NCBI GenBank assembly: GCA_030448265.1
Contig: JAUJNG010000019.1
Coordinates: 3,036-67,035, forward strand
Source: Abditibacterium sp.
Lineage (GTDB): Bacteria > Armatimonadota > Abditibacteriia > Abditibacteriales > Abditibacteriaceae
Direction: 5' to 3'
Length of the DNA stretch: 64,000 nt
In this document: positions 1 to 55,975 of the stretch, piece after piece
Layout of the letters: each line of letters starts with the position of its first letter
Numbering within the stretch: position 1 is the first letter of the stretch
Position numbers and translations under genes: made by a program
Notes under the pieces: generated by a model
The model's database searches: none
Told to the model about the DNA's origin: nothing
What the model saw: only the letters and a program-made list of their open reading frames with translations

Positions 1-1799
1 CCATCGAAAAAACCGGCCTCAAGCGCGCTGTTGGTGTCGTCGGCGTCGGTTTGGTCGCTGTAAACGATGTAATCGGGAATCAAATCCCATTTGTGATTGA
101 CGGGCAGCTTTTCGCCCCACCAAGTCCCACTGCAAATCCCAATTAAACGCGCCTCGCTCCAGGGCGATTTCCACACCATTCGCAGCCCCAGATTTTGGCC
201 CGCGACGACCTTTTCGCCGTGCCGGTAGCCTTCGGGCGTGAGTTCGAGCGGCAAATCCGCGCCAATTTCGGCGATGAGCGGATTGGTGGCGCGCGTGCCG
301 AAGAGAATCAAATTGAAATTGGCTTTGTCGGCGTCGGAAATTTGCGTCGCGGCTTTGATTGTGGCCTTGCCGTCGCTGCTTTGCGCCCATTCGAGCGCGA
401 AACGCTCGGCGTCCATGCGCCCCTTTTCGTCGCCGTAAACGAGCAAAAACGGATCGCGCAGCGCGTTTTTGAAGGGGCCGGAGCGCGCGGGTGTTTTTCC
501 CAGTTTGGCGCCGCGTTTTTCCCACACGATGGGCGAAGATGGGTCGAAAGTTTGGGGCGCGGCCACGCCGTTGACGACGAGGGAAATTTTCTGTCCCGCG
601 CTCAGAAAACGCTGCGGTGGCTCCAAAACGAAGCGCGCCACATTTTGGGCCTCGACTTCGATGAGGTTGTCGCCGATTTGCGTGCTCAGACTCGCGCTTT
701 CGCCGTATTTTTCAAAGGCTTCGACGCGCGCCCAGGCGTTGCTCGCCTCGCGCAAATCGACGGCGACGAGTTCGATTTTGCGCGGCGGAATCGAGTCGGG
801 AAGCGCTTTGAACCAGTCGAGGGCGCGCTCCAGCGCCACGAATTGAAATTCGTCGTAATGGTCGCCGTCGGGCTGTTCGAAATAGCGAAAAGGCAGCTTC
901 AAACGCCGCGCATCGGCGGCGATGCGGCGCGAATGTTCGGGGGAAACTAAAGTGTCGAGCGCGCCGTGCTGCACCAGAAACGGCGTATTGCGCGCGTTGC
1001 GAATCAAAAATCGCGGGTCGTCGGCGTCGTAGAGTGCGCGTTTCCACGGCGGCAGGGTTTCGCGCTGAAGTTTGAACCACAAATAAAAATCGCTGCGGCC
1101 CGAAATCGCCGCGACCGCGTTCCACCCTCCCGCCGTGTGCAATCCCACCGCGTAGGCGCCGTAGCCGCCCATCGAAGTGCCCGCCAGGAAAACCCTATCC
1201 GCATCAATGGCATAACGCCGCAAAACTTCGTTTTTAACGCGCAACACGTCGTCCTGTCCCCACTGCACGAAATCGGAGTTGCGCCGTCCGTAGGGAATCG
1301 CCACGATGAAGCCGCGTTTGCGCGCGCTGTCGAGCATTTCGGGCGGAGGCAGCGCGGGAGTGACTTTGGAAATCTGGTCGGAGTAGCCGTGCAAATAGAC
1401 CACGAGCGGCCATTTTCGCGCCGGCGAATAATTGCTCGGCAGCGCGATCCAGTAGGGCTGGGGCGAGCCGTCGGGCGCGAAATAAGCGCGTTCGTGGAAG
1501 TTGTAGGGCGTGTTGGCGAAGTCGCCGGTGGCTTTCTCAACTTGCGCGGCGCGAGTTTTGAGGCCGGTTAGAAAAGTCCAGTATTCGGGCGGCGCGTCGG
1601 CGCCCAGGCGCTCGTTGTTGGCCTGCACGATGGCGATTTGTTCGCGCTTGAAGGCCAGAAGCGCGGCATTTTGCGGGTTGGTTTGGGCGTGGGAATCAAC
1701 CACAGAGACACGGAGACACAGAGCGAGAAAAAGAAGAGAAAGCCATTTCCTCCTCGGTTTTTTCCTCTGTGCCTCCGTGTCTCTGTGGTTTTTCTTCAT
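1..1799 (-). CDS. Exported alpha/beta hydrolase (prolyl oligopeptidase / esterase family), 3' end outside window
   Basis: An open frame of about 599 codons runs off the left edge, so the C-terminus is missing. A GxSxG nucleophile elbow (LAGTSMGGYGAY) lies near the middle. It is followed by a likely acid in HGALDTLVSPEHS and a histidine in QPDGDHYDEF, the order expected of a Ser-Asp-His esterase or peptidase. The preceding PLVVYLHGYSD is a typical oxyanion-hole strand. The start at 1799 lies 6 bases after the fabG stop and gives a complete Sec signal peptide: basic n-region, hydrophobic WLSLLFLALCL, and a cleavable DSHA-QT end. Much of that peptide is encoded by a dispersed inverted repeat (1698-1790). 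The substrate is unknown; an exported depolymerase or peptidase is an inference. Confidence 0.8.
   Translation of the reverse strand, partial: MKKNHRDTEAQRKKPRRKWLSLLFLALCLRVSVVDSHAQTNPQNAALLAFKREQIAIVQANNERLGADAPPEYWTFLTGLKTRAAQVEKATGDFANTPYNFHERAYFAPDGSPQPYWIALPSNYSPARKWPLVVYLHGYSDQISKVTPALPPPEMLDSARKRGFIVAIPYGRRNSDFVQWGQDDVLRVKNEVLRRYAIDADRVFLAGTSMGGYGAYAVGLHTAGGWNAVAAISGRSDFYLWFKLQRETLPPWKRALYDADDPRFLIRNARNTPFLVQHGALDTLVSPEHSRRIAADARRLKLPFRYFEQPDGDHYDEFQFVALERALDWFKALPDSIPPRKIELVAVDLREASNAWARVEAFEKYGESASLSTQIGDNLIEVEAQNVARFVLEPPQRFLSAGQKISLVVNGVAAPQTFDPSSPIVWEKRGAKLGKTPARSGPFKNALRDPFLLVYGDEKGRMDAERFALEWAQSSDGKATIKAATQISDADKANFNLILFGTRATNPLIAEIGADLPLELTPEGYRHGEKVVAGQNLGLRMVWKSPWSEARLIGICSGTWWGEKLPVNHKWDLIPDYIVYSDQTDADDTNSALEAGFFD
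1698..1790. repeat. Inverted repeat, family A copy 1, inside the hydrolase signal-peptide region
   Basis: Arms of about 26 bases at 1698-1723 and 1765-1790 contain the CACAGAGACACGGAGACACA type motif and its complement, around a spacer rich in A and G. The same motif recurs at 14053-14155, 20406-20490 and inside 21712-21942. Unlike the other copies, this one is translated, in frame, as residues 3-36 of the exported hydrolase. Confidence 0.9.
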
Positions 1800-4695: not shown

Positions 4696-4842
4696 AAGGC
4701 TAGATAAAGGCTAAAGGATGAAGGCTAAATCACTTCCAGTTTCTCGCAGCCCTGCTTGATTTAGCCTTTAGCCTTCATCCTTTAGCCTTTAAGAGAGCCT
4801 TCATCCTTTAGCCTTTAAGAGAGCCTTCATCCTTTAGCCTTT
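4696..4842. repeat. Inverted repeat, family B copy 2, with tandemly triplicated arm
   Basis: One arm lies at 4696-4731 and the matching arm at 4757-4790. The second arm is followed by two extra direct copies of a 26-base unit (AAGAGAGCCTTCATCCTTTA plus GCCTTT) at 4791-4816 and 4817-4842. This is the only family B copy with a repeated arm. It fills the gap before der. Confidence 0.92.
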
Positions 4843-4879
4843 TTCAACTCGGTTGGGCCTTTGCCCAAGCACCGCAATC

Positions 4880-6241: not shown

Positions 6242-6334
6242 GCTAAAGGCTAAAGGATGAAGGCTAAAGGCTAAATCAAGCCAAGCTGTGGAAACTGGAA
6301 GTGATTTAGCCTTCATCCTTTAGCCTTTAGCCTT
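6242..6334. repeat. Inverted repeat, family B copy 3 (der-plsY gap)
   Basis: The arm AGCTAAAGGCTAAAGGATGA begins directly after the der stop, and the complementary arm ends about 24 bases before plsY. The loop CAGCTTGG/ACTGGAAGTGA is the reverse complement of the family B2 loop, so this copy sits in the opposite orientation. Confidence 0.92.
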
Positions 6335-6357
6335 TAAGAGTCGCCTTCTTTGAATTT

Positions 6358-19481: not shown

Positions 19482-19569
19482 TAGAGAACGCGAAGCGTCA
19501 GCGAGTGAGGCATGACTGCAACCAACAAGTCACAGCCATGCCTCACTCACTGACGCGTCGCGTTCTCTA
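19482..19569. repeat. Inverted repeat, family D copy 1
   Basis: The arm TAGAGAACGCGAAGCGTCAG and its near-complement around 19537-19569 (CTGACGCGTCGCGTTCTCTA) flank a 23-base loop. It lies just upstream of the 3-methyladenine glycosylase start. Other copies: 54813-54898 and 55888-55975. Confidence 0.92.
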
Positions 19570-20405: not shown

Positions 20406-20490
20406 ATTAACCACAGAGACACGGAGACACAGAGATTTTTTGAGATTTTTTACTCCAACTCCGCTTTTTCTCTGTGTCTCTGTGGTTAAT
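20406..20490. repeat. Inverted repeat, family A copy 3
   Basis: The arm AATTAACCACAGAGACACGG with the complement CTCTGTGTCTCTGTGGTTAA surrounds a loop rich in T. It fills the gap between the Rieske gene and the first TrkA-type gene and ends 4 bases from the stop of the latter. Confidence 0.92.
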
Positions 20491-21711: not shown

Positions 21712-21942
21712 GTGACGCTCGAAACCTCCCCCGCCCCCTCCAAACGAACGGGTGTGCGGGTTGGAGATTTCAACACAGAGAACGCAGAGAGACAGAGAAA
21801 GCAGAGGACTTTTCAAAGAGGATTTCGCTTGAAACTCCCCAAAAAATCTCTGTGGCCCTCTGTTTCTCTGCGTTCTCTGTGTTGAAAACACCAACCCGCA
21901 CATCCGTTCGTTTGGAGAGGGCGGGGGAGGTTTCGAGCGTCT
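21712..21942. repeat. Nested inverted repeat with a family A element in its centre (family A copy 4)
   Basis: Outer arms (CGAAACCTCCCCCGCCCCCT onward, and the matching AGGGCGGGGGAGGTTTCG at the right) enclose CAAACGAACGGGTGTGCGGG / CACATCCGTTCGTTTGG. Inside these, family A arms (AACACAGAGAACGCAGAGAG and complement) surround a loop. It spans the whole gap between the TrkA-N gene and the permease stop. Confidence 0.9.
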
Positions 21943-32054: not shown

Positions 32055-32163
32055 AAAGCGAAATAAATTCGCAGCCAACGAAATTGTCGGCCTTCGCCGA
32101 CAGTGTTCGAATGTCATGTCGGCGAAGGCCGACAATTTCGTTGGCTGCGAATTTATTTCGCTT
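32055..32163. repeat. Inverted repeat, family C copy 1
   Basis: Arms of about 47 bases (32055-32102 and 32117-32163) contain CGCAGCCAACGAAATTGTCG and its exact complement, with inner TGTCGGCCTTCGCCGACA, itself a palindrome. The loop is 14 bases. The sister copy at 50107-50217 differs at several positions in both arms in a compensating way. Confidence 0.95.
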
Positions 32164-39410: not shown

Positions 39411-39493
39411 TGAAGGCTAAAGGATGAAGGCTAAAGGCTAAATCAAACACAGCGCGAATGATTTAGCCTTTAGCCTTCATCCTTTAGCCTTTC
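39411..39493. repeat. Inverted repeat, family B copy 4, between atpD and atpC
   Basis: Arms of TGAAGGCTAAAGGATGAAGG type and complement surround a loop CAAACACAGCGCGAATGATT. It begins immediately after the atpD stop codon and ends 6 bases before the atpC start. Confidence 0.93.
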
Positions 39494-42267: not shown

Positions 42268-42347
42268 AAGGCTAAAGGCTAAAGGCTGAAGGCTAAATCA
42301 TTCGAACTTGGTTGATTTAGCCTTTAGCCTTTAGCCTTTAGCCTTTT
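42268..42347. repeat. Inverted repeat, family B copy 5, between atpA and atpG
   Basis: AAGGCTAAAGGCTAAAGGCT arms with their complement surround an ATCATTCGAACTTGGTTGAT loop. It starts 4 bases after the atpA stop and ends 7 bases before the atpG start on the minus strand. Confidence 0.93.
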
Positions 42348-50106: not shown

Positions 50107-50217
50107 AAGCGACATGAAGTCGCAGCCAACGAAGTTGTCGGCCTTCGCCGACAGCGTTCCAATCCCTTGATGTCGGCGAAGGCCGACAACTTCGTTGGCT
50201 GCGACTTCATGTCGCTT
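50107..50217. repeat. Inverted repeat, family C copy 2
   Basis: Arms 50107-50153 and 50170-50217 carry CGCAGCCAACGAAGTTGTCG and its complement. The inner TGTCGGCCTTCGCCGACA palindrome is shared with copy 1 at 32055-32163. The loop is 16 bases. It separates the desaturase from the convergent AraC regulator. Confidence 0.95.
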
Positions 50218-54195: not shown

Positions 54196-54813
54196 ATGCA
54201 ACCATTCACCGTTTTAACCGGCATCGCCGCGCCGCTCGACCGCGCCAACGTCGATACCGATCAAATCATCCCCAAGCAGTTTTTGAAGCGCATCGAGCGC
54301 ACCGGATTCGGCCAGTTTTTGTTTTACGACTGGCGTTATCTCGCCGACGGCAAAACGCCCAATCCCGAATTTGAACTCAACGACCCCAGACTTGCGGGCG
54401 CCACGATTCTGGTGACGGCCCGCAATTTCGGCTCCGGTTCGAGCCGCGAACACGCGCCCTGGTCGCTCGACGACTACGGTTTTCGCTGCGTCATCGCGCC
54501 CTCGTTCGCCGACATTTTCTATAACAACTGTTTTCAGAACGGCATTTTGCCCATCGTTTTGCCCGAAGAAACCACCGCGATTCTCATCAAACACCTGCAA
54601 AACCATCTCGGAATGCAATTGACGATTGATTTGCCCGCGCAAACCGTGTCAGGCGAAGGTTTTGTCGCCGATTTTGAAATCGACCCGTTTCGCAAGCACC
54701 GTTTGCTGGGCGGATTGGACGACATCGGCATGACGATGCAGCACGAAAGTGAAATCACGCAGTTCGAGAGCAGCCGTCCGGCGTGGAAGCCGACGCTGAC
54801 TTCGGCGGCGTGA
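54196..54813 (+). CDS. leuD: 3-isopropylmalate dehydratase small subunit
   Basis: This 205-residue LeuD starts [31 protein letters not shown], the defining swivel-domain N-terminus. It continues with [20 protein letters not shown] and [21 protein letters not shown]. With LeuC it isomerises isopropylmalate in leucine synthesis. leuC is not adjacent. Divergent start codons (54194 and 54196) leave no separate promoter space. Confidence 0.95.
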
Positions 54814-54898
54814 AGAACGCGAAGCGTCAGCGAGTGAGGCTCGACTGCAAAGACACAGTGGCAGTCAGGCCTCACTCGCTGACGCTTCGCGTTCTCTA
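54813..54898. repeat. Inverted repeat, family D copy 2
   Basis: AGAACGCGAAGCGTCAGCGA and the complement TCGCTGACGCTTCGCGTTCT surround a loop containing GACTGCAAAGACACAGTGGC. It begins at the leuD stop codon and ends 2 bases into the stop region of the convergent flavoprotein. Confidence 0.93.
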
Positions 54899-55864
54899 CG
54901 CGCCCAGTTTTCGCGCTGCCTCCAATCCCGATAACGCCGCGCCCTCGATTTTGGCGCCCTGGAAAATATCGCCCGCGAAACTCAAGTTGAGCGAACGGAG
55001 CCGAAAAGTGCCAATTTCGACGGGGTTTTCCGGTTTGGAATAGCGCCAGCGCCGCACCTCGAAACTTTCGAAGGGCGCGCCCAGAAACGGCGCGGCTGCC
55101 TGCAAAAGCGCCGCGCCGACTTCATTTTGCGGCTCGTCGTAGTGCGCCCGCGCCCAGACGCCGCTCGAATGAACCGTGACGCTGCCCTCGCGCGGCGAAA
55201 TGCCTTTTTGAAAATTGTCGGCCAGCCACCACAGAATTTCGCCGTTGATGTAAAGCGCGCCAGGCGGCGCAATTTGCGACGGCCCCGCCAGATTCGCCAT
55301 CACCGCGAAACACGGCTCGTAACGCAAACTTTCCAGCGTTTTGGCGTCGTTTTCGGGAATTTTAATGCCCGAATTTCGCAGCAAAGCGAGCGATTGCGGC
55401 ACCGGCGCCGTCAAAATCAGTTCGTCGCCCTCGAAAGTGTTTCCGCTCTGCGAAAACGCCGTCCAGCGTCCATTTTGAAATTCCAGACGCTCGATTTCTT
55501 CGCCCGAATGCACTTCTAAATCGCGCGCGAGCCATTTGGCGATGCCCGTCATCCCGCTTTCGCCGCGAAAACGCGGGTGCGCGTCGCTCGGTTTATCGTT
55601 TTCAGGCGAGGGATAGCCGCGAAACCACTCGCCCGCCACGTTGTTTTCTCGCCATTCTTCCAGCAAAGCGCGAAATTCCTCGCTGCGCGCGGTGAAAAAC
55701 TGCGCGCCGTGATCGAAAACGCCGCCCTCGAAACGCCGCGTCGCCATGCGCCCGCCCACGCCGCGCCCTTTATCGAGCAAAATCGGCTTGAAACCGGCGT
55801 TTTTTAACTGGCGCGCGGCGCACAGGCCGGACATTCCGGCGCCTAAAATTAGAATTTGCTTCAT
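54896..55864 (-). CDS. FAD-dependent amine-oxidase-like protein (renalase type)
   Basis: This 322-residue protein starts MKQILILGAGMSGLCAARQL with the FAD GxGxxG motif and KGRGVGGRMATRRFEGGVFDHGAQFFTARSEEF, typical of the bacterial renalase/NAD(P)-FAD oxidoreductase group. The C-terminal NLSFAGDIFQGAKIEGAALSG helix closes the FAD site. The substrate is unknown (renalases oxidise isomeric NADH forms). Family D hairpins lie on both sides. Confidence 0.85.
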   Translation of the reverse strand: MKQILILGAGMSGLCAARQLKNAGFKPILLDKGRGVGGRMATRRFEGGVFDHGAQFFTARSEEFRALLEEWRENNVAGEWFRGYPSPENDKPSDAHPRFRGESGMTGIAKWLARDLEVHSGEEIERLEFQNGRWTAFSQSGNTFEGDELILTAPVPQSLALLRNSGIKIPENDAKTLESLRYEPCFAVMANLAGPSQIAPPGALYINGEILWWLADNFQKGISPREGSVTVHSSGVWARAHYDEPQNEVGAALLQAAAPFLGAPFESFEVRRWRYSKPENPVEIGTFRLRSLNLSFAGDIFQGAKIEGAALSGLEAARKLGA

Positions 55865-55887: not shown

Positions 55888-55975
55888 TAGAGAACGCGGA
55901 GCGTCAGCGAGTGACGCTGGACTGTAACTTCAACGGGGCGGTTATGCCTCACTCGCTGACGCTTCGCGTTCTCCA
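55888..55975. repeat. Inverted repeat, family D copy 3
   Basis: TAGAGAACGCGGAGCGTCAG with the complement CTGACGCTTCGCGTTCTCCA and a loop around GGACTGTAACTTCAACGG. It lies between the flavoprotein and moxR genes. Confidence 0.92.

Follow-up and report, generated by a model that had tools for sequence, protein, structure and literature searches.

In Yersinia, the dispersed stem-loop repeat RU-2/YPAL makes up most of the signal peptide predicted for YPO1552, and the signals of the homologous proteins are unrelated to it; RU-2 was described as a mobile element with target duplication (Delihas 2007, PMC2759123). In Rickettsia, palindromic elements are located in frame inside protein genes (Ogata et al. 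2000, as summarised in PMC2229807), and REP super-families carry GTAG/CGTC tags according to the account in PMC3733652.

The locus described here lies in a 64,000 nt stretch of Abditibacterium DNA (the window). It resembles RU-2/YPAL in that a dispersed stem-loop repeat is fused in frame to the N-terminus of a protein and forms most of its predicted signal. It differs in that the repeat belongs to another family and the host to another phylum, in that both arms together give the n- and the h-region, in that the host gene, coding for an esterase, is conserved and syntenic, and in that the genome holds a second, independent case. Moreover, RU-2 is described as mobile with target duplication, whereas mobility of the repeat studied here (family A) is inferred from its dispersal. 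What it shares with the Rickettsia elements is that a palindrome is read through in frame within a protein-coding gene; those are summarised as adding an apparently neutral internal peptide, whereas the esterase repeat would supply an N-terminal targeting signal, which by description sets the two apart. Like REP/RAYT systems, the genome contains short, high-copy intergenic palindromes and Y1 transposase genes, but family A elements are longer (60–105 bp) and their arms begin with AACCACAGAG, in which by inspection neither GTAG nor CGTC occurs. A search for earlier papers on this repeat sequence returned none of relevance. The esterase case is a strong new example of a kind of event that has already been published for Yersinia (PMC2759123), and synteny and the second case lend it additional support.

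The palindrome within the esterase gene

The open reading frame from the ATG at 1797–1799 (minus strand, as all features of this locus) is intact and stays open across both arms of the palindrome, just as the initial annotation had read it. Its product starts with MKKNHRDTEAQRKKPRRKWLSLLFLALCLRVSVVDSHAQTNPQNAALLAFKREQ and from there on reads as an alpha/beta hydrolase (Esterase PF00756/Peptidase_S9 PF00326), the mature part of which occupies 1–1685 and extends past the window edge. In an alignment with orthologs the catalytic-site motifs GTSMGGYG, D282 and H314 are intact. Upstream, at 1806–2549, lies a conserved neighbour, fabG, coding for a 3-oxoacyl-ACP reductase-like SDR, whose stop codon precedes the ATG by 6 nt.

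The family A palindrome, 93 bp at 1698–1790, accounts in frame for residues 4–34 of the precursor. Its arms of 44 nt each are 82% complementary and enclose a 5-nt loop. The first arm (1747–1790) is purine-rich on the coding strand and encodes the charged n-region NHRDTEAQRKKPRR; the complementary arm (1698–1741) is pyrimidine-rich and encodes the hydrophobic LSLLFLALCLRVSVV. The loop region is itself partly palindromic and aligns with the loops of the ordinary copies L077, L081 and L107. As RNA the element folds with −68.8 kcal/mol (z = −8.5), far better than shuffled sequences, and this hairpin, which starts 10 nt into the coding region, could reduce initiation or expression.

Every part of a Sec signal peptide is present in the precursor N-terminus, MKKNHRDTEAQRKKPRRKWLSLLFLALCLRVSVVDSHA followed by Q. 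The putative signal peptide comprises 38 codons (1686–1799), with cleavage placed after SHA (A38) on the basis of the reading frame and of the homology to the same-genus orthologue G001, which resumes at HA. The n-region MKKNHRDTEAQRKKPRRK, with about 18 residues a long one, carries a net charge of +7 ahead of the core, and the h-region (KD11 = 2.56) is comparable to those of nine orthologues (2.11–3.49). By inspection, S36-H37-A38↓Q39 has small residues at −3 and −1, and a cleavage after SHA, as had been suggested initially, is also credible from its alignment with VHA↓D of G001. The further suggestion of a basic n-region from the left arm and a core LCLRVSVV stood in part: the charged residues do lie within the arm, but the KK preceding NHRDTE sits just outside it, and hydrophobicity over 11 residues peaks at WLSLLFLALCL, spanning loop and arm, rather than at LCLRVSVV. 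The predicted function of the palindrome-derived peptide is that of a Sec export signal for the esterase.

A Shine-Dalgarno-like GAGG can be recognized in the sequence of the fabG end (1812–1815), 12 nt ahead of the ATG; it is weak, and its spacing counts against this start. The position itself is backed by comparison with orthologues, several of which, at class level, start like this one 4–10 nt past, or overlapping, the fabG stop, and ATG 1799 appears a credible start. Downstream of the repeat the reading frame offers no ATG start, unlike nearly all other gene-adjacent copies. The only near candidate is an in-frame GTG within the right arm (1701–1703), whose product would have no signal peptide; it was rejected, as it lacks both a Shine-Dalgarno sequence and conservation. 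The source assembly is a draft in 43 contigs, and an N-gap lies past the end of the window. Given a gene order like that of relatives and a repeat of no more than 93 bp, a misassembled join at this locus is unlikely.

Probable replacement of the native signal

The initial annotation had reasoned that orthologues without the repeat, if they started inside the mature domain, would speak against a donated signal. This comparison was made, and they were found to possess signal-peptide-like N-termini of their own instead. Indeed, the class-level orthologues sit directly behind fabG and, like all orthologues examined, have their own basic-plus-hydrophobic N-terminus, unrelated in sequence and free of the repeat. 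Among named genomes there was no closer orthologue than matches of 33–35% identity in Armatimonadetes/Ca. Zipacnadia. The nearest of all orthologues examined, that of G001, is 51% identical in one alignment and 53% in another comparison. Its N-terminus reads ...NRRRSSSPCAVVGAALLLVTGFGQVHADVLPQNRALLAFKREQ, and similarity picks up exactly at HA, the presumed −2/−1 residues: where ...GQVHADVLPQNRALLAFKREQ is aligned against ...VDSHAQTNPQNAALLAFKREQ, everything ahead of HA is replaced. Since homology resumes at HA, before the cleavage site, the repeat would have replaced the native signal. Its removal would leave MKK-DSHA without a core, and therefore a replacement rather than an addition is indicated. 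A search of 291 genomes from the phylum for translated copies of the 38-aa signal peptide found none beyond the source genome. The proposal that the palindrome donated the export signal is supported as a genomic inference, the repeat standing in for the ancestral export signal of the esterase.

In our opinion it is highly probable that a palindrome copy replaced the native signal peptide of an esterase which is translated behind fabG and exported via Sec. An abundant intergenic copy would have landed at, or recombined into, the 5' end of the gene. Translation would proceed from ATG 1799 just past the fabG stop, presumably coupled to that of fabG. The purine-rich arm would then give the basic n-region, the loop together with the pyrimidine-rich arm the hydrophobic core, and start codon and cleavage site (SHA↓Q) would still come from the host gene, so that the esterase could be exported by Sec and cut by signal peptidase I. 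Such a swap may work because signal peptides need just charge and then hydrophobicity, and the strand asymmetry of the palindrome encodes that order.

Three other readings have to be weighed against this. The palindrome might have destroyed the signal, with the true start at GTG 1703 or further in, ATG 1799 a chance extension, and the enzyme cytoplasmic or the gene decaying. The usual placement of the repeat, intergenic and just ahead of starts, would fit this, as would the codon-usage gene finder, which placed the start at 1703, and a hairpin that could hinder initiation at 1799. We nevertheless regard a destroyed signal as improbable, considering that 1703 has no Shine-Dalgarno sequence and no ATG is nearby, that all aligned orthologues have signal-like N-termini, that the frame in use is among the best signal frames of the family, and that the catalytic site is preserved. 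Somewhat less improbable, though still unlikely, is a translated but uncleaved segment, holding the esterase in the membrane as a signal anchor. Its n-region is long and strongly basic and its core, of only about 9–15 residues, is broken by R30, but SHA↓Q fits the −3/−1 rule and has its counterpart in G001.

The native core could also survive as the loop (WLSLLFLA), with the arms merely added around it. What speaks for this is a native signal in G002 containing VLSLLFVVL, which resembles WLSLLFLAL. LSLLF-like stretches are, however, common in signal peptides, and the loop corresponds to the loops of ordinary family members. A surviving core was rejected for this latter reason and appears very improbable. 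Replacement of the native signal by the palindrome, the reading we prefer, would make this a clean case of a conserved enzyme whose targeting signal was taken over by an abundant non-coding repeat, relatives still showing the ancestral state. It would also mean that "junk" palindromes can act as ready-made secretion signals and that gene callers will misplace starts at loci captured in this way.

A second case

A related palindrome overlaps another gene start at G000:C16 near 121,830–121,945 (L070:2533–2645). It has the sequence ACCGCA..GCGCAAAG / CTTTGCGCC..TTTGCGGT; in its left half a Shine-Dalgarno-like GAGAGG precedes the ATG, and the core of MNRFFHISSSFWLLKSLRLCVFAVWFLLGSAQA↓KEVQNHG comes from its right arm. 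In G002 the orthologue, at 51% identity, carries the native signal MQLWKLRLQALLLCLLFVPAAVQA↓KPEG instead. Thus, for the esterase and for this second gene alike, orthologues lack the repeat and possess unrelated signal peptides, and the second case suggests that the process recurs. In G002 a palindrome of a third type, untranslated, ends a few bases before the ATG of the orthologue, which hints at a route: palindromes would take up positions just ahead of start codons and occasionally be captured there.

Such capture is rare: of about 178 elements that were screened across three genomes only 2 qualify, in a pattern-based count over sampled loci rather than an exhaustive one. In-frame upstream ATGs occur by chance ahead of one or two other copies (L105, L056), which were rejected as read-through cases for having plausible starts downstream; L137 (plus strand) was likewise rejected, being antisense to a gene with an EF-Ts-like product.

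Why palindromes can read as signals

Purine-rich codons specify charged and polar residues and their complements L, F, V and S, so that complementary strands encode opposite hydropathy. For this reason palindromes are biased towards a role as signal. In family A copies the purine content is 71% in the left and 31% in the right half. Using a home-made, plain measure of hydropathy and charge, we found 84 of 384 frames (64 copies, six frames each) to be both open and signal-like, compared to 50 of 3840 in dinucleotide shuffles and 56 of 2286 in flanking DNA, that is 22% versus 1–2%. The family is pre-adapted: its purine-rich and then pyrimidine-rich arms read charged and then hydrophobic. The frame used by the esterase is the only one among the 384 with a core of at least 2.5 and a charge of at least +5, suggesting that a good copy was retained, although for selection a single case counts as weak evidence. 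With regard to sequence, signal peptides are known to be tolerant (Kaiser et al. 1987, as cited in PMC4585086). The chances seem to us evenly divided on whether purine-then-pyrimidine palindromes form, as a class, ready-made export signals, which repeatedly overwrite the signals of secreted proteins in palindrome-loaded genomes. If so, signals of conserved secreted proteins should be overwritten by different palindrome families, and there are two cases in one genome.

Distribution of the repeat family

Genome-wide, the arm pattern matches 214 times with up to two mismatches, against 23 for a reversed-pattern control, and 174 times against 0 with up to one. Matches number 49 in the same-genus genome and 117 in a same-family genome, with a patchy occurrence across the phylum. 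The family is thus, as Delihas described for Yersinia, spread over the genome beyond the gene concerned. The untranslated copies that the initial annotation had mentioned elsewhere in the window were found between genes at 20406–20490 and, with family-A-like arms at 21781–21797 and 21858–21874, inside a larger intergenic inverted repeat with 84-nt arms (21714–21941).

Around each of 69 family A places about 3 kb were read, and genes were called with a simple finder based on codon usage. By these calls nearly every copy lies between genes, often with the upstream stop codon within 15 nt and the next ATG 9–50 nt downstream, and the flanks of the copies are variable and partly complementary. At L039–L107, copies frequently lie at most 15 nt from the upstream stop in operon-like gene pairs, and the outer flanks are often complementary (for instance, TGAACC..GGTTCA). 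Placement and complementary flanks together suggest that the element prefers such sites or acts at the ends of genes.

Mobilisation of these palindromes by a RAYT was rejected for want of linkage to Y1 transposase genes: across ten Y1 loci checked in the genome none is flanked by the repeat or has it adjacent, and in only two places does it occur, more than 1 kb away. Five Y1 (IS200/RAYT-like) transposase genes with strong matches are located at G000:C5, C24, C40, C12 and C39 (L108–L112), and the main palindromes do not flank these.

The source genome holds several unrelated palindrome families side by side. One of them (AAGGCTAAAGGATGAAGGCTAAA) is mostly intergenic and occurs in the window at 2558–2650, 4703–4845, 6242–6336, 39413–39491 and 42268–42345. 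Two others have near-perfect arms, GCGAAGCGTCAGCGAGTGA at 19482–19569, 54808–54901 and 55890–55973, and TGTCGGCGAAGGCCGACA at 32056–32163 and 50107–50217.
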